Source: Glandiceps talaboti (lineage: Eukaryota; Hemichordata; Enteropneusta; Spengelidae). From it: 64,000 nt of DNA. This document shows, piece by piece, positions 16,172-63,545 of this stretch. The stretch spans positions 20,623,725 to 20,687,724 of the forward strand of contig NC_135557.1 in NCBI RefSeq assembly GCF_964340395.1. The letters are read 5' to 3'. Below the pieces are notes generated by a model. The model was not told the DNA's origin. It made no database searches and saw nothing but the letters and a program-made list of their open reading frames with translations. The position numbers and the translations under genes are program-made. Each line of letters begins with the position of its first letter. Position 1 is the stretch's first letter.

Positions 16172-16235
16172 ATGATGATGGAAGTTCGAATGTTAACGCA
16201 ACGATTAGCAAGCTTCGCAAGATTTCAATGTACAA
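16172..16235 (+). CDS. MRPL39: MRPL39 exon 1, mitochondrial presequence
   Basis: Three consecutive ATGs open the frame; the first is used here but any could serve. The 21 residues contain Arg and hydrophobic residues and a single Glu. The donor is GTAAGT in phase 1, and A|GG makes the Arg of RKYSS with exon 2. Confidence 0.8.
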
Positions 16236-16767
16236 GTAAGTACAACGACAGCAATTGACTATGTTTACGACAGTTCAGTCAGGTATTGAGTAACAAAGAA
16301 CAATTGCTCAATGTTAAACAGCATCATGACGAACCAGTTTCTACCTTTACACTTGATGACAATGATGTGTTATTTACTAGATATCTTTGCATGATGATGA
16401 TGATGATGATGTAGGTTAAAACTAGTCCTTCTTGCAGGTCTAGATTACTGACATGACCCTCAACACCTTAGGAGAAGGGAGGGCCAATAGTCAGAATCGA
16501 GTCCCGAATGACTCTGTATGCAAGCAGGATTAGGTCAAAACGAGTGCTAATGTGAAAGATAATACAGACCCGAAAAATAGGTAAAATCACAAATAAAAAA
16601 TTCTGCAATAAACTGGAGACAGAATAATCATGGGCACAAGACCTAATACTCACTTGTGAAATGATGATTGTTCATGGTTCCAGGACAGTAACATTTGAGA
16701 ATAGAAGCTGCAATAATTGTAGCGTTAGTTTTATTTTGAGGTTTGATATTTAAAATTTTTTTTAACC

Positions 16768-16800
<33 letters not shown>

Positions 16801-19800
16801 CCGGGGTTTGCACTCAAAACTAATGTTAGTTTTGAATTTAAACACCGGAACAAAAAGAAACAACTCAAACCCCCCCCCCCCAAAAAAAAAAACAACAACC
16901 TTAAATCAAAACTATCACTACAGTTATTGCAGCTAATATCAGAACATCACATTCATTTCTAATTCTGATACCATCCCAAAGTAACTCTATTTTACTGTCC
17001 TATAAATTATATCATTTAGACTTAAACTTGTATGCAGAGTAACTAATATTGGATTTGGTTATATTGCATACAGACTAATGATACCCAAATTTTGTTGTTG
17101 TGGGTCAACATGATAAAAACTGGGATTTCTTGTGAGTTATCACATAGTAAGAGATGGAGGAACACAAAATATTGGTGCATCACTAGAAATTGTGTGTGTC
17201 AGTGATGTGTCAAATTAGCGCAAAGGGCTGCATCCAGTATGAGTAATATTATTTCTTTTCTTACTTTTTCTGTTGCTATGGTAATTTCAAGGGAAATACA
17301 GTAGTATAGCAAGTCCTACCAACTCTGAAGTGAGAAGAATTCAGAATGAATTATTTGAGAAAGAAAAACAAAGACAGTTATCTCTTGTTACGAGAGTGGA
17401 GAAGATTGAAGTAAAAAACAAAGATGATATTAATCCGTGTACTTTGATAATGAACAAAGGACTCTCAACACCATATCATATAGCAATGCGTAAGTATCAA
17501 CCACTTATCACTATATATCACATAGCAATGCGTAAGTATCAACCACTTATGACTATATATCACATAGCAATGCGTAAGTATCAACCACTTATCACTATAT
17601 ATCACATAGCAATGCGTAAGTATCAACCACTTATCACTATATATCACATAGCAATGCGTAAGTATCAACCACTTATCACTATATATCACATAGCAATGCG
17701 TAAGTATCAACCACTTATCACTATATATCACATAGCAATGCGTAAGTATCAACCACTTATCACTATATATCACATAGCAATGCGTAAGTATCAACCACTT
17801 ATCACTATATATCACATAGCAATGAGTAAGTATCAACCAGTTATCACTATATATCACATAGCAATGCGTAAGTATCAACCACTTATCACTATATATCACA
17901 TAGCAATGCGTAAGTATCAACCACTTATGACTATATATCACATAGCAATGCGTAACTATCAACCACTTATCACTATATATCACATAGCAATGCGTAACTA
18001 TCAACCACTTATCACTATATATCACATAGCAATGCATAACTATCAACCACTTATCACTATATATCACATAGTAAAGCGTAAGTATCAACCTGCACAGTGT
18101 TTTTTGCAAGGTCTGGGAACCTGTAACAGAAAGGGGTAAATCTGGTAAATGTAACAGCTAAAAAGAAATCATGAAGTGTTCACTACATCGGATTTTAATC
18201 AGATTGGGGGAGGGGTAAAGTATCAACTGTTTATTCTATGGTTGTATATAAATACCATCATTTTGAGTAACCAATGACAACACCTGTTTACACTTCATAG
18301 TCAGATGTTCCTTTGTGAAATTCTAAGTTACAGTTTACTGAGTAGATGATTATTTTTTTCATATCTCAGATTTCGATAAAATGTACAGAGATAGGTCAGC
18401 ACTTGCAGTAGTGAATGGTGAAATTTGGGATATGTATCGACCTTTGACCTCAGATTGTGAGGTCACATTACTGCATTTCAAATGTGACCAACCAGAGGAA
18501 GTCAATAAGGTGAGTCAGAATAAGCAATGTATCCTTTGTAATGTGTTATTCTACATCAGGTGTGCTTTGCAATGTGCTATTGTATACCAGTTGTAGTATA
18601 TGTAACTCTACAAAAGATGTACCTTGCAATATAATACATATAGTCTGTAATGGCTGTATCTTTATCTGTTGTGGTATGGGCCAACAATCTTCACAGATGT
18701 GTTATATACAATGAGTAAATCAAAACCAGGTGTGCTATAATTGTGAACCAGGTGTACTACATATACAATCTGTAAATCAGAACCAGGTGTGCTATTATTC
18801 CAAATGAGGTGTGCTGCAGTTACAGTGAGCAATTCGAACTAGGTGTGCTATAGTCTTGGTTACCCAGACTTTCACCACTGGGGACTCTTCTATGAGACCA
18901 CCCAGACGAAAGTCTGGAGAAACCACATTCCAACTTCCCCACGACGGAAGTCACACAGTACATTTCTACCAAACATAAAAAATGTGCTTATAAGACCTGT
19001 TTGTTGTAATTAATATATATCAGTCACTTGAGAAGTGATAATCTGTAGTGAAAGTACCCAAATTGTTCAGCCTGCAATGTTGGATGTTAACTATTCCCAT
19101 GATGCACTGCTCCAGAGGCTACTTCCTGTGCGGGATAGTTGGAATCTTCTTTCCCCAGGCGCTCATTTGGGGTGGTCTCGTAAGCAGAGCCCCAAGCAGT
19201 GAGAAGCTGGATAACCGAGAATAGGTGTGCTATAATTACAAACCAAGTGTGCTTCATTTATTAATTCCAAACCAGATGGTTTATTCATGCATAATATACT
19301 ATGCAATTTCCAGTGAATTTATAACATTCATGTATATTTTTTCACCATAAAATCTCTAGAAATGTTTCTTGCCAGTGATACATCTCTTTCTTTTTATCAA
19401 GGCTTATTGGAGAGCATGTACCCATATATTAGGATCAGTGATTGATAAATCATTTAAAGATGATTATAATATAGAACTTGTCAACGTACCTGATGTACCA
19501 GGTAAGTAACAACTTTTATTGTGTATACTTTATCAGAATTCCTTCCATAGTAACAGTTTTACATATATTAGTAAAGAAATGTTCTTGAATGACAGTGCTT
19601 TGAGTGTATTCAAAACTCCTGTTGCTAACATAGTTGATGGGATAATAGGAGTTTCTGTCACATTTTGGTATATACGTGTATATACTAAATTCTATCATTG
19701 AACTGTTTATTACAATTTTTATTACAGCTTTTTATCTCAAGTTAGAGTGTCAAAATAGAACAAGAAGGTCAACTTATTCTCACTCATATAGTAATGCATG

Positions 19801-20880
19801 TGAAGCGTGTGGATCAGAGGTGTTGACCAAGAAATTGAATGTTTGTTATTTTTATGATGCACCTAGGCAGTACTATTGTATTTCAGGTACTAAGAATTGC
19901 TATGTTCTTATATGATGTGATTTCTATGTTGTAGTGAGTGCTGGTTGCTTCTGTTATGATGTAAACCTTAACATGGATAACTGGACACCTACAAAGGGAG
20001 AATTAATGTGTCTGAGTCAGGAAGCTTTCCGATTATATGAGAAGTCACTGCCATTTGAAAGACTTGAAGTAGATACCAATCTAGCCATACAAATATTTAG
20101 CTACAACAGGTAAGGAAGGGACATAAAGTCCAGATTCAGATTCGGAATCAGATTCAGATTCAGGTTCAGATTGGAAGACTAGTCTCATATTGTCCCCAAT
20201 CTGAATCCGAATCTGAATCTCAGACCAACTTTATACACATAAGGAAGAGATGCATTATTAGATTATTTATGTCATATATTTTCTCAAGTTGATTGCACAA
20301 CGATTTCTATAATTTTGTTGACAATATTATTGTGGTTTACTGCTTCTGGGTATATTAATGACTGACTAACAGTAAACATGCGCTTCTCTCAAACAGCAAG
20401 TGTATGTGCCCTATTGTAATACAAAGTCACGAGTGTCCAGTCTCATATGTAGCAGTGTCACACTTATGGAACAGTATACCTCTTGAACTGCATTTGTAAT
20501 TCACTGTCAATACTTTCAAGAAGGACATCATGGCATGTCTATTTGCAAGATCTATCAAACTTTTACATCAATCTGCTATTCTTCCTGTTCATCCATTTTA
20601 CCAATCTTAGAATTTTTATATTCTATGTGTATGATATTGTAGTGAACGTTTTTCTCTCAAAAGATATGATATATACATCACTAGCAACTGTCGCCATTGC
20701 ATTTCTGTAATATTTATAGGTATAAACAAGACAAAATAGAGAAATCAGGGAAACCCATGACAACACTGTATCGCTGTGGTGACTTTGTTGACTTAAGTGA
20801 TGGTCCAATGGTGGCTAATACAAGTTTTGCACAACATTATGTAGTTACTTTAGTGAGTATTTCTTTCTCTTCATCCATCC

Positions 20881-20956
<76 letters not shown>

Positions 20957-21095
20957 GTCTGTCTGTCGGACTGGCTATATGGCTGCCTGTCTGTCGCTAT
21001 GTATGTGTGTATGTATGTATGTATGTACGCATGTATGTATGTATGTATGTGTGTGTGTGCGTGTGTGCGTGCCTTCGTGCATGTTTGTGTGTGTG

Positions 21096-21127
<32 letters not shown>

Positions 21128-24100
21128 TGTATGTATTTATTCCTGTCTGTCTATGTATGTATCTGTCTCTGTCTGTATGTCTGTCTGCACATTTTTATGT
21201 ATATATGTGTGGGCATATATGAATGTTTGGTTAGATAGACTGAAAGATATGTTATCATGTCCTTCTGATCATCCCCACACATGATTGAATGCAGGATTTG
21301 CAATGTTTGATCTATAGCAAAATCAAGGTACAAATACTTGTGCTAGGAAGTATGATGGAATCTGTGTTGCCCAGAGTTTTAAAATTCATCTGAACACATT
21401 GTTAATTACTCCTAATCTTTCTACTTGTATCAAATATTTCAGGTTCATGACATCAAGAGTAATTTGATAGACACTGTAAGTACTAATGGTTTATTGTTTT
21501 AACGTTATATCTTATTATATAAGTACATCCAAATATGTAACTTTCCAACATCAAATTACAGTTAAAATAATGTAGGCTTAGTGTTTCACTCATGGGACAT
21601 TACATTTTTGACACAAAGATAGACATATATCAACTCAAGACTAACAATAACAGAGATACAATAAACACAACAGGATTCATTGCCAAATCACATTGAACAC
21701 TGATAAACATTACTATTCTTTCACACTGCAGTAAAACAGGCTTTTAATGAAAACATTACACATTGACATGATGATTTTAATGGCTGCAATTGTTTAGTTT
21801 CTAACTGATAATCAACATTTCAACTTGACTACTTCTACATCCCCACTGTGCACGGCACCTATGTAATTGTTTCTTTTGTATTAGAAGTTATCTGGGGGTC
21901 AGTTTACAGGAGAGAAACACCAAGCCTACATCATTTTAACTGTAAAAGACTAGCTTCTAGATCTAGTTAGTTAACTAGAAATCAACCAACAGAGGACTAA
22001 TTATGGACTAACGATTGACTATAAAATAACACTCTATGTTTACTTTGCAGCAAAAATTACAGAGATTTCAGGGTGTTGCTTTACCAGCTGACTTTCATAA
22101 GGTGAGTTGAATGTATACATGTAATTGTATACATAGAATCTATGTATTTGTTAATTAGTTCTATTTGGCATTTGTCATAACAGTAAAAACAGAGGTCTTC
22201 AGTCATTTTAAAGTGGCCATATGGATGATGATTGGGTATTTATTTTTGATTTTTAGTTTACAAAAACAATTTTATCATGGCTTTTTGAAACGAAACATCG
22301 CTTTCATTTCCAATTTATCATTCCAAAGTAACTGTATTGTACTGTCATATTGATTGTTGGAACCATGAACAATATATTGTCCATAATTTGAGAAGCTGAG
22401 AGTTTTCGACTGCAAACTGTCAGTCCTGTTTACTCTATGATAGAGGGCGCTGTTGATAAGCTGAGAGGTTTCGACTGCAAACTGTCAGTCTTGTTTACTC
22501 TATGATAGAGGGTGCTGTTGATAAGCTGAGAGGTTTCGACTGCAAACTGTCAGTCCTGTTTACTCTATGATAGAGGGCGCTGTTGATAAGCTGAGAGGTT
22601 TCGACTACAAACTGTCAGTCCTGTTTACTCTATGATAGAGGGCGCTGTTGATAAGCTGAGAGGTTTCGACTGCAAACTGTCAGTCCTGTTTACTCTATGA
22701 TAGAGGGCGCTGTTGATAAGCTGAGAGGTTTCAACTACAAACTGTCAGTCTTGTTTACTCTATGATAGAGGGTGCTGTTGATAAGCTGAGAGGTTTCAAC
22801 TACAAACTGTCAGTCCTGTTTACTCTATGATAGAGGGCGCTGTTGATAAGCTGAGAGGTTTCGACTGCAGACTGCCAGTCTTGTTTACTCTATGATAGAG
22901 GGCGCTGTTGATAAGCTGAGAGGTTTCGACTACAAACTGTCAGTCCTGTTTACTCTATGATAGAGGGCGCTGTTGATAAGCTGAGAGGTTTTGACTACAA
23001 ACTGTCAGTCCTGTTTACTCTATGATAGTACTTCTGTTAATAACCAATGTTTTGTTTTGTCTGTTAGATTCATCTCACTACCTGGGAGCCAATAGAAGAA
23101 AGGGCATCCAAACCAGTAAGTTTAACTTATAGAGTATGTTATACATTAGTCCAATCATACTAACGTCCAGTTTCACTTCGCAGCCAAGTTCTCATATAAG
23201 CTGATGCCTCTTCTACATTTACGAACTCAGTTTCCACCAATTTCCTTAGCTTTACCAGGTACATTTGAATGTTGATTTGAATGCGTTTTCTCTTCAAAGT
23301 GTTGTTTTTCTGTAAAAAAGAAGATAACTCAAAAATACCAAATCTGCATTACTGTTCTTTTTAAATTGCTATATCCATGACCTCTGTGTGACATCCAGGT
23401 GTTCCTGGAAGCACATGAAAGCACTATTCAATTGTCCTTTATACAATTGACTGTGGGGGCGCTGTTCTTCCTGTCTGTGTGTCCCTGGGGGTATTACCTT
23501 TGCACTAGAGGGCACTATTTTCTCCACTTCTGGTTTGCATTGTACAATAGGCAATTCAAATGAGAATTTAAATCTTTTTGATATTGTCGCTCACTTTTGA
23601 AACCTACCTTAACCCTAACCCCAACCCCTGCCATAACCTTAACCCAATAAAATCTTTTGAGAGGTATTGTAGAAATGAGGAACAAAACTGCAGGATGGAA
23701 TACTTAAAATAATATGTAAATTTCTTCAAATATGACAACTGACATTCATAATGTGTTGCTTTATTCAGAGTACCATGGCCATGGCCTAGCATACACAAAT
23801 CAATATATACAAAAACTGCGAATGTACAAGTTTGTTCTGACGAAAAGCAATGGCAGATACAAATTCAAATAATAATATTTTTAAAAAAAAAATAGTCGAT
23901 CATACTTTGACGTAAACGGAAAGTAAAAAATACAAACTTTGCTAAATTATTCTGACTATAAACATGATTTGTTGTCATTGAATAATAACATTTAAATTGA
24001 GACATTCTACCGGTAGTCCAGTATTACAGAAAGATTATGATAGTTGACTGTTAACACACCAACTTTAAGTTTACCCAATGTAGACTAAATCAGTATTTTT

Positions 24101-24231
24101 CTTTTCTTAAGACAAAATTATTGAATGTTTTGTTTCAGGTGTATATTGATTGTAATGGTCCATGGCAAGGTGAAAGGAACCAGGCAAGAAGACAAGATGA
24201 TGAAAAAGCCACAACTGTGTCATCGCTTTAA
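16172..24231 (+). CDS. MRPL39: Mitochondrial large-subunit ribosomal protein mL39
   Basis: Exons 16172-16235, 17292-17489, 18370-18509, 19402-19501, 19935-20109, 20720-20852, 21443-21475, 22051-22101, 23068-23115 and 24139-24231 join in frame to 344 aa, close to the vertebrate length. Recognisable blocks: LFEKEKQRQLSLVTRVEKIEVK, MNKGLSTPYHIAM, WDMYRPLTSDCEV, AYWRACTHILGSVIDKSFKDD, GCFCYDV, SLPFERLEV, GDFVDLSDGP, RFQGVALP. The family derives from threonyl-tRNA synthetase-like N-terminal domains and is a structural, non-catalytic part of the mitoribosome. Exons 1-2 give an Arg-rich, acid-free N terminus ending RKYSS, a mitochondrial-presequence cleavage context. Odd: intron 2 begins inside a 42-bp tandem array that repeats the exon 2 donor, and intron 8 holds a 65-bp array. 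First AATAAA after the stop is at 24671. Confidence 0.95.
17073..17225 (+). repeat. Family E element, MRPL39 intron 1
   Basis: Shares CCAAATTTTGTTGTTGTGGG, TGATAAAAACTGGGATTTCT, AGTAAGAGAT and a GGTGCATCACTAGAAATTGT block with the other copies; both ends are eroded. Confidence 0.7.
17292..17489 (+). CDS. MRPL39: MRPL39 exon 2, ending in the first unit of the donor array
   Basis: Starts after TTTCAAG and ends ATG C|GTAAGT. Joined to exon 3 this gives AMHFDKMYRDRSALAVV, which keeps the conserved Met-His of the family at the junction; that is why the first of the repeated donors is taken as the normal one. Confidence 0.88.
17473..18092 (+). repeat. 42-bp x 15 tandem array spanning the MRPL39 exon 2 splice donor
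   Basis: Unit: CACATAGCAATGC|GTAAGT followed by ATCAACCACTTATCACTATA. Copy 1 includes the true exon end. Twelve copies keep GTAAGT, two have GTAACT (copies 12, 13) and one has lost GT (copy 14). The unit is 14 codons with no stop on either strand, so the frame is open through the array to 18139. Confidence 0.93.
18851..19222 (+). repeat. Short inverted-repeat element, family A (about 372 bp copy)
   Basis: Left end TAGTCTTGGTTACCCAGACT, right end AGCTGGATAACCGAGAATA. Longest of the three copies; no coding capacity. Lies in MRPL39 intron 3. Confidence 0.75.
20882..21222. repeat. Compound (TG)n/(CTGT)n/(TATG)n microsatellite
   Basis: Starts 30 bp after the MRPL39 exon 6 donor; the open frames through it are repeat translation. 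Confidence 0.9.
21557..21944. repeat. TIR element (about 388 bp) in MRPL39 intron 7
   Basis: Left TACAGTTAAAATAATGTAGG (then CTTAGTGTTTC) mirrors right GAAACACCAAGCCTACATCA (then TTTTAACTGTA): a terminal inverted repeat of about 31 bp with three mismatches. No coding sequence. Confidence 0.8.
22391..23029 (+). repeat. 65-bp x 10 tandem array in MRPL39 intron 8, CTCF-like core in each unit
   Basis: Each unit: AAGCTGAGAGGTTTCGACTG, CAAACTGTCAGTCCTGTTTA, CTCTATGATAGAGGGCGCTG, TTGAT. Nine units carry TAGAGGGYGCT (seven GGGCGC, two GGGTGC); the last is cut short. The array ends about 40 bp before the exon 9 acceptor. Confidence 0.92.
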
Positions 24232-28767: not shown

Positions 28768-30735
28768 ATGGCGTTCAACTTTGACGAATTAAGTGGAAGG
28801 GGATTTTTTGACGAGAATCTTCAGTGCCCCGGATGTAAGGAAGACTTGGTAAATTTGAAAGTTCTACCGTGTTCTCACTATTTTTGTTACGATTGCTTAC
28901 TACATATTGCTGTCTCATTGGCGGGAAAGTTGACATGTTTAACATGTGGCGAGCCACATCGATTACCAAATGGGGGCGTACCAGCACTACCAGATCTTAG
29001 ACCATGGCTGGGGAGAGCTAGGTCACGTGACAGCTATATATCATATGACAGTAGTTCGATCGCTGCCGACCATATGGTCACATCACCTAGCAACGAATAC
29101 GTGTATTATGGCGTACCTGGTGCCGTGCGTAATGACGTAGAAGCCAGTTCACAAGTAGACAGTGATATTAACCAAGAATACACTGACACATTACGTTCCA
29201 AATCTGGAAAACTTTATGCAAATAATGAAAATGGTGTGCCTCAATCACCTGTCACCTGCGAACTGTGTGATGCCATGGCAACAAGTCAGTGCACAACATG
29301 TCAACACAAACTGTGTCGAAACTGTACTGCTAAGCATCGACAGTCATGCTATTCTGAGGGACAAGTGGTTGCTAAGGAAGCAATCGAATCGTTTCAAGAA
29401 CCTATCCGTCGTCATGACTACCGGGCAGTACATAGCATAATAGATGAAATACCCGATGAGGAAACTTCATCCGTTTTCAGTGACGCAAATGTGACGTCAG
29501 AGCTGCCAAGCTTCGATATATCAGAAGAAGAACAAGTAAAAAAAGAGGCTATCCACGCAACTGAAAGTATTAGAAACTGGGCAAAGAAAATTACTGCAGA
29601 AGTGTCGAGACAAGAACGTGAATTGGTGGATAAAGTGATGTACCACAGCTCCGTGGTTAGAGAAAAACTACGTAATCAGTCACTTAGCAACGGTCACACT
29701 GGGTCAACTGCAATAATTCCAGAATATCTAATGTTTGGGGAAAGTAGAGAAGTCTTAGAAATGATACAAGATGTCCACATCGGATCCCTGACGAAAACTT
29801 CTCTCTTGAGTACAGATTATAACCCAAATCACATAGACATTAATTTGAATTCATTGACATCACTAGAAATGTCAACCACCTTAAAATCATCAACTTTGAA
29901 ATATAGTAAAACGGCTATGATTGGTGGACATGACGACCAATCAGCGAAGCTCAATGTCCCAGTGGGCGTTGCCATGACGACATATGGGGATTGTTTAGTT
30001 CCTGATACTCTTCGCGGAGTGATGGTATTTGACAATCAATACAATTACAGATATCATTTCTCAGTGGATGACGAGAGTGAATTCGAACCACGTGTTATAC
30101 ATTTATTGAAAAATGATGAGTTAGCGATCACAGACATCGAGCAAGGACGGGTGGTTTTGTGTAACACCCAGGGAAGGAAAAGAGTCGAATTTGGCCAAAC
30201 GTCACTGCAAGCTCCCTTAGGTATCAGCAGCGTCTCCAACGGCCAACTTTATGTGACAGATGTTGAGAGTCACTGTATCAGAATCTATGATTTGAATGGT
30301 AGATATTGGAAAAGTTTTGGTGGCTATGGTAGTGGTGATGGCCATTTTAGATTCCCATGGTCAGTTGCTGTAAATAGCTTAGATGACGTCATTGTTAGTG
30401 ACTACTATAATCACCGTATCCAGGTTTTTGATTCGGAAGGGGAATTTGTCTTCCAGTTTGGTAAGCATGGCAACGGCAATGGTGAGTTCGAATACCCGCG
30501 AGGCGTGGCTACTGATTATCGAGACAACATATATGTTTGTAGCAACCATAAAGTGCAAATATTTTCAGCGACCGGAAAATTTATTCGTTGTCTTGGTGAT
30601 GGCAGTGATGACCTTTGGTACGTGACTGGAGTAGCTGTCAGCCAATGGAAACCAAGTGATGTACTCGTAACACATCACTTAGAGAAGTCTCTGTTGTCAC
30701 CATCAGTGGTGTCAGTATTCTCACCATTTCGATGA
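28768..30735 (+). CDS. TRIM-NHL protein (RING, B-box, coiled coil, six NHL blades) in a single exon
   Basis: 655 aa from ATG 28768 to TGA 30733. RING: C20, C23, C35, H37, C40, C43, C57, C60, the full C3HC4 set, so ubiquitin-ligase activity is plausible. B-box at about 164-195 (CELC, CTTC, CRNC, KHRQSC). Helical region at about 250-305 (EEEQVKKEAIHATESIRNWA) fits a TRIM coiled coil. From about 393 to the end six NHL-type blades can be counted, with PVGVAM, PLGISS, PWSVAV and PRGVAT starts and DLNGRYWKSFG, DSEGEFVFQFG ends, enough to close a six-bladed propeller. Relatives (TRIM2/3/32/71 type) act in ubiquitination and RNA control; substrate is unknown here. No filamin domain between coiled coil and NHL is evident. 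A TTTATTTCAG acceptor at 28751 implies a 5' UTR intron. Confidence 0.93.
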   Translation: MAFNFDELSGRGFFDENLQCPGCKEDLVNLKVLPCSHYFCYDCLLHIAVSLAGKLTCLTCGEPHRLPNGGVPALPDLRPWLGRARSRDSYISYDSSSIAADHMVTSPSNEYVYYGVPGAVRNDVEASSQVDSDINQEYTDTLRSKSGKLYANNENGVPQSPVTCELCDAMATSQCTTCQHKLCRNCTAKHRQSCYSEGQVVAKEAIESFQEPIRRHDYRAVHSIIDEIPDEETSSVFSDANVTSELPSFDISEEEQVKKEAIHATESIRNWAKKITAEVSRQERELVDKVMYHSSVVREKLRNQSLSNGHTGSTAIIPEYLMFGESREVLEMIQDVHIGSLTKTSLLSTDYNPNHIDINLNSLTSLEMSTTLKSSTLKYSKTAMIGGHDDQSAKLNVPVGVAMTTYGDCLVPDTLRGVMVFDNQYNYRYHFSVDDESEFEPRVIHLLKNDELAITDIEQGRVVLCNTQGRKRVEFGQTSLQAPLGISSVSNGQLYVTDVESHCIRIYDLNGRYWKSFGGYGSGDGHFRFPWSVAVNSLDDVIVSDYYNHRIQVFDSEGEFVFQFGKHGNGNGEFEYPRGVATDYRDNIYVCSNHKVQIFSATGKFIRCLGDGSDDLWYVTGVAVSQWKPSDVLVTHHLEKSLLSPSVVSVFSPFR

Positions 30736-35715: not shown

Positions 35716-63545
<27,830 letters not shown>

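Follow-up and report, generated by a model that had tools for sequence, protein, structure and literature searches.

When the end of an exon and its splice donor are repeated in tandem, which of the copies is used, and can the use of several of them produce a series of proteins of different length? The question is raised by a minisatellite of fifteen units within the MRPL39 gene of the hemichordate Glandiceps talaboti, in a stretch of 64,000 nucleotides (the window) which was analyzed together with the next 20 kb of its contig. Tandem repeats lying across exon-intron boundaries, on either side of the exon, are called "mirages" in a report on the globin genes of amphioxus that also cites Adh3 (PMC3087553), and the term is used here for arrays of the same structure.

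The MRPL39 gene and its array

Ten exons join into an mL39 (MRPL39) protein of 344 residues, the first ATG being assumed as the start. The gene and its array comprise:

16172..24231, + strand: coding region of MRPL39 (mL39), assumed ATG through stop codon, placed by splice consensus and continuity with the family sequence
16172-16235, + strand: coding part of exon 1, placed on the same basis
17292-17489, + strand: exon 2; its final 17 bases form the exonic portion of unit 1
17473..18102, + strand: array of 15 x 42 bp, a probable donor-type mirage minisatellite
17490..17495, + strand: first donor, GTAAGT, which restores the family sequence; the other copies stand at 17490 + 42n
18370-18509, + strand: exon 3, beginning ATTTCGATAAAATG; the codon for the conserved His is split by the junction (C/AT)
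19402-19501, 19935-20109 and 20720-20852, + strand: exons 4-6, from splice consensus and family continuity
21443-21475, 22051-22101, 23068-23115 and 24139-24231, + strand: exons 7-10, likewise

The sequence-only reading had named the gene MRPL39 and had described fifteen copies of the end of exon 2 and its donor at 42-bp intervals. The homology searches bear out the first point: phmmer against the solved mL39 chains gives an E value of 1.9e-77 over residues 2-243 of 249, the TGS domain (PF02824) scores 23.5 bits against a cut-off of 22.2, and the protein is 72% identical to that of Saccoglossus kowalevskii and 65% to that of Ptychodera flava. A protein search of the 590-Mb assembly, in which the best candidates were scored, found no second copy or haplotype of the gene; of the seven matches, six fall on its own exons and the remaining one on a place on C13 with 29% identity. 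The array was in turn confirmed by unit alignment and by TRF (17473-18090, 14.7 copies, 97% matches, score 1159).

Each unit corresponds to the final 17 bp of exon 2 together with the initial 25 bp of intron 2, the consensus being ATATCACATAGCAATGC before the exon/intron junction and GTAAGTATCAACCACTTATCACTAT after it. Unit 1 is the genuine end of exon 2, and the body of the exon continues into this unit only, which places the genuine exon at one edge of the array. The first fourteen units are complete, and the most diverged, unit 15, can be aligned over about 30 bp. Units 3-8 and 10 are identical to one another, and one substitution is common to units 2 and 11; a C common to units 12-14 changes GTAAGT to GTAACT, and unit 14 has also lost the GT (ATAACT). 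The GT is present in 14 of the 15 units, as had been claimed when fourteen donors were called usable, but the strong form GTAAGT is confined to twelve (units 1-11 and 15), units 12 and 13 having GTAACT. Where the coding copy reads CAT, units 2-15 have CAC, from which it follows that the body of the array evolves separately from the coding copy.

A DNA search of the whole genome with the unit returned its own array and one 67%-identical array on C15, in the inspected stretch of which no GTAAGT occurs. A dispersed mobile repeat is unsupported, since the unit is found at one genomic place besides this look-alike. Seeding of the array through microhomology between the tail of the exon and the head of the intron was also considered, and the 18-column alignment was not significant (shuffle P 0.06). 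A candidate for a diverged, older copy farther down intron 2 is weak (shuffle P 0.026). An array on C15, at about 1430-2180 of an extracted locus, has units of approximately 40 bp and to the eye lies inside an apparent reverse-transcriptase-type reading frame.

Reading frame and donor strength in MRPL39

The unit amounts to 14 codons without a stop. Whichever of the fifteen positions is joined to exon 3 (18370), the product stays open, with a length of 344 + 14n residues (344 to 540), a count of 15/15 that includes the unit 14 position despite its lost GT; the earlier statement that the unit is stop-free and that all copies leave one phase is thus correct. Every extra unit would contribute RKYQPLITIYHIAM, ending in YHIAM ahead of the conserved His, and the peptide YQPLITIYHIAM would mark an inserted unit in the mL39 protein.

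Splicing from the first donor yields ...STPYHIAM-HFDKMY..., which is contiguous in 120/120 of the homologues listed (the best 120 of 363). Both the proposal that this donor restores the family sequence and the conserved Met-His noted at the junction hold in this set, the residues flanking the junction being MH in 113, LH in six and KH in one, with no insert in any. Three peptide words from the array are absent from the same 120 listed homologues of the 363 found. The AlphaFold2 model of the protein from Saccoglossus places the exon 2/3 junction within helix 77-84 of the TGS region.

In RNA duplexes with the 5' end of U1 the donors of units 1-8, 10 and 11 have energies of -7.6 kcal/mol. Unit 9 stands at -7.5, unit 15 at -8.3, units 12-13 at -1.6 and unit 14 at +1.5; the remaining eight donors of the gene range from -5.6 to -13.7. 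Ten downstream donors are approximately equal to the first and the last is slightly stronger, so that strength alone does not pick the first donor. Of two duplicated donors the intron-proximal one is classically preferred, and this preference would favour a downstream copy in MRPL39.

Boundary-spanning arrays in other genes

Ten boundary-spanning arrays were found beyond MRPL39, nine of them (three within the window) in a Cys-rich gene and one in a Sushi gene. The former is the other large gene of the window, with Ephrin_rec_like repeats (PF07699) scoring 46.7 bits for the joined exons 51235 and 52794 (cut-off 23.1), and 22.1 bits, slightly below this cut-off, for the joined exons 43702-48707. 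Cys-rich exons go on in the next 20 kb of the contig and are taken to belong to one gene; six more arrays, five of the donor type and one of the acceptor type, lie in that extension, where the numbering of the window is continued.

43702..43798, + strand: exon of the Cys-rich, PF07699-type gene
43783..44918, + strand: mirage array of donor type, in which a 59-bp unit, the end of exon 43702-43798 with a GTAAGT donor, recurs about 19 times
56446..56870, + strand: acceptor-type mirage array, 79-bp unit, 5.4 copies, comprising a TTATAG acceptor and the beginning of the exon at 56824
57083..57492, + strand: much diverged acceptor-type array, 95-bp unit, with acceptor and start of the exon at 57430
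69384 (continued numbering): donor-type array, 100-bp unit
74082 (continued numbering): donor-type array, 49-bp unit, diverged
77839 (continued numbering): donor-type array, 59-bp unit
79451-79904 (continued numbering): donor-type array, 30-bp unit, 15 copies, in frame
80662 (continued numbering): donor-type array, 53-bp unit
81654-83412 (continued numbering): acceptor-type array, 41-bp unit, about 43 copies of TTTCAG followed by GGGTACATTTC

Exon ends of the Cys-rich gene were placed by eye within the window and with a splice matrix in the extension. The array at 57083-57492 rests on a TRF row and reading by eye, the alignment test having missed it. Two sites in the extension score weakly (the acceptor at 74785 and the donor after 83965) and both exons were dropped from the base-level alignment control described below, for which the acceptor listed as 83361, one copy before the last, was also replaced by that near 83402. 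The last acceptor of the 81654-83412 array leads directly into the exon body.

The Sushi array, a donor-type array on C6 with three copies of a 46-bp unit, was the one case among 22 loci; these were kept from 30 after eight in or beside an intron-less ORF on C7 had been excluded beforehand, and were assumed to be spliced exons, one of them having been given the wrong strand so that its two boundaries are unreliable. A very long open reading frame on C7 (C7:23180650-23190388, 2138 aa listed) is full of Sushi domains.

When reading is continued past the first donor, a stop is met before the second in six of the eight donor-type arrays. Some motifs in this read-through test also matched inside the arrays, and the line starting from the exon body was used. 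The array at 43783-44918, for example, has an in-frame TAG across its first donor, and joining exon 43702-43798 to 46925-47012 gives the plausible reading CEPGYYCVGG. Two arrays escape this: that of MRPL39 is open throughout, and the one at the exon ending at 79468 stays open through about nine added units (KPIRVACLLG) until a stop is reached; the latter is a second candidate for a length ladder. It follows that in the six arrays protein must be made from the exon-adjacent donor, and by the same logic, the periods of the acceptor arrays (79, 95 and 41) not being multiples of three, that the last acceptor is probably the one used there. Arrays tolerated without keeping of the frame are most easily understood if splicing uses the copy that adjoins the body of the exon. 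Since most arrays cannot give in-frame products, the frame-keeping of MRPL39 looks like a chance property. Periods divisible by three number two among the eleven boundary-spanning arrays, against 3.7 expected (binomial P of two or fewer 0.23), and selection for frame is unsupported by this count.

Whether arrays are enriched at exon boundaries hinges on the null chosen. In the window by itself four of the 24 arrays include one of the 52 boundaries. The expected number is 0.55 for the window as a whole (P 0.002), 1.07 if placement is confined to the gene spans (P 0.023) and 5.7 when whole arrays are placed randomly. For the two gene spans and the 20-kb extension, ten of the 27 arrays include one of the 90 boundaries; the expectation is 2.0 with one unit per array placed randomly (Poisson P 5e-5; 0/20000 permutations), 2.6 with collapsed arrays (P 4e-4) and 11.5, hence no excess, with whole arrays. 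The base-level alignment control (threshold 30) likewise gave no excess, tandem copies being less frequent at boundaries than at randomly chosen sites: 8/68 versus 238/767 in the Cys-rich gene, 1/18 versus 35/209 in MRPL39 and 1/44 versus 25/506 in the Sushi loci. Two of the nine Cys-rich arrays do not reach the threshold, with scores of 25 for 74082 and less than 24 for 57083. The enrichment is gone under these two nulls, and because the base-level control shows no excess, dense minisatellites and chance may be a sufficient account of the boundary arrays. TRF arrays with a period of at least 10 cover 12.6 of the 48.4 kb in the two gene spans; for the counts of arrays at boundaries, rows of period below 10 were dropped and overlapping rows merged.

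Six of the array loci with donors that lie within the first 3.4 Mb of C1 have, by eye, no clear coding exon end at the array, which indicates that many donor-like arrays are not mirages. A pattern census of the genome gave 6098+6432 matches for GTAAGTA three times at 27-57 bp spacing (control 9252+8371) and 157+357 for CAGGTAAGT three times (control 103+126), these figures being counts of matches and not of loci. The excess of the latter is no evidence of a preference, because the single 9-mer CAGGTAAGT already outnumbers its reverse by 19 to 3 in a gene-rich, array-rich sample of 217,874 bases. At C2:8200407-8200525 the unit of an array looks like the end of an EGF-like exon (CGGYGVCVAG) followed by GTAAGT, and may be a further mirage.

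Known systems and competing explanations

The original amphioxus Adh3 paper is said to be that of Canestro et al. in 2002. Amphioxus mirages are reported to be unstable in length, and Adh3 data and globin RT-PCR suggest that splicing is regular (PMC3087553); PGBD5 and TnC have been added to the list, with accurate splicing again reported to be undisturbed (PMC3902484). As described there, the amphioxus mirages (Adh3, BflGb6/BflGb9, TnC, PGBD5) are boundary-spanning repeats like the MRPL39 array, with units of tens to more than 100 bp, many of which carry a splice signal; the genuine exon lies at the edge of the cluster, and the boundary units are left out of homogenization. The MRPL39 array has the same hallmarks, a unit containing the boundary, an exon at one edge and a splice signal in most units, but it comes from another phylum, each of its units keeps the reading frame, and it is known from the DNA of one assembly. 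A hemichordate-directed literature search, which does not establish absence from print, showed among the 20 of 22 papers listed no title announcing such arrays in a hemichordate; the structure was already known from amphioxus, and we have seen no earlier hemichordate report.

The minisatellite of the human gene IFI6 has a 12-bp unit and makes in-frame additions of 4 residues. It is reportedly the minisatellite of the interferon-induced gene 6-16 (IFI6/G1P3) treated by Turri, Cuin and Porter in 1995. According to one paper, two downstream repeat units of IFI6 (6-16, G1P3) serve as donors and give different isoforms, Turri et al. 1995 being cited (PMC4526556); the same reference appears in the lists of PMC2572611 and PMC3618361. 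The likeness to MRPL39 is that of a minisatellite offering several donors to one transcript with a frame-keeping unit (15/15 products in MRPL39), and the differences are the longer unit (42 bp), the other gene and the restriction of MRPL39 to genomic data.

Unlike the array, the gene, the frame, the continuity with homologues and the comparable arrays of two further genes, the choice of donor, its frequency and the growth and variability of the array are matters on which we infer. The MRPL39 array is probably a mirage minisatellite in which the donor at 17490 is productive and the other copies are near-silent decoys within the intron. It would have arisen by local tandem amplification of sequence straddling the exon 2/intron 2 junction, and the near-identity of the units suggests that slippage or unequal exchange enlarged it. 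The donor adjoining the body of exon 2 would be the productive one, and the remaining eleven strong and two weak donors would be intronic and hardly used. If a downstream donor were occasionally used, each unit would insert 14 residues into the first helix of the TGS domain and the frame would survive, the unit being by chance 42 bp long and free of stops; such use is expected to be at a low level, as noise. Against the decoy reading stand the U1 energies of the downstream donors (-7.5 to -7.6 for ten, -8.3 for the last), the use of downstream repeat donors in IFI6 (PMC4526556), the classical preference for the intron-proximal donor, and a boundary enrichment that varies with the null.

These same facts, near-equal donor strength and the several donors used in IFI6, can be read as pointing to a substantial or functional ladder, in which several donors are used and mL39 isoforms, longer by 14 residues per unit, vary between individuals. 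All spliced products being open in frame, and every inserted unit ending in YHIAM before the conserved His so that the helix sequence is re-supplied, this would be feasible. We nevertheless think it unlikely, with no insert in any of the 120 listed homologues, the junction inside a modelled TGS helix, six of the eight donor-type arrays of the genome closed to read-through, and splicing reportedly undisturbed in amphioxus mirages (PMC3087553 and PMC3902484). The unit might also be selected to remain at 42 bp and stop-free, as a fail-safe against mis-splicing; the open MRPL39 array and the roughly nine open units of the 30-bp array at 79468 accord with that proposal, the count of periods divisible by three speaks against it, and we hold it to be very improbable. 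Lengths of assembled arrays are often inexact, and the array could on that ground be an assembly artefact or a collapsed or expanded repeat. This we regard as the least credible explanation, given that the MRPL39 units differ by shared and private substitutions and that comparable arrays with different units occur in two other genes.

Eleven boundary-spanning arrays in three genes of one hemichordate invite the broader, and rather doubtful, proposal that boundary minisatellites are widespread in hemichordate genes, with the exon-adjacent copy consistently chosen and individuals carrying protein-length ladders where the unit is in frame (MRPL39, 79468). If it were true, a spliceosome choosing the copy on the exon body among up to about forty near-identical ones would constitute a natural test of exon definition, and, if general, mirages would be no amphioxus oddity. 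Mirages are a natural series of near-identical competing splice sites whose rule of choice can be read from RNA-seq, and they also offer raw material for intron gain, which was proposed for them from tandem copies of splice signals (PMC3087553). The likeness to intron gain by tandem duplication of proto-splice sites is that tandem copies with splice signals could become new introns; MRPL39 differs in having no sign of a new intron, its array sitting within an existing one.

Among the minor features of the window are two nearly identical 282-bp Cys-rich exons (50174-50455 and 51235-51516), about 1.06 kb apart, which look like a recent duplication, and a single open frame of 655 aa at 28768-30732 with a RING finger and NHL repeats by Pfam, which is TRIM-NHL-like.
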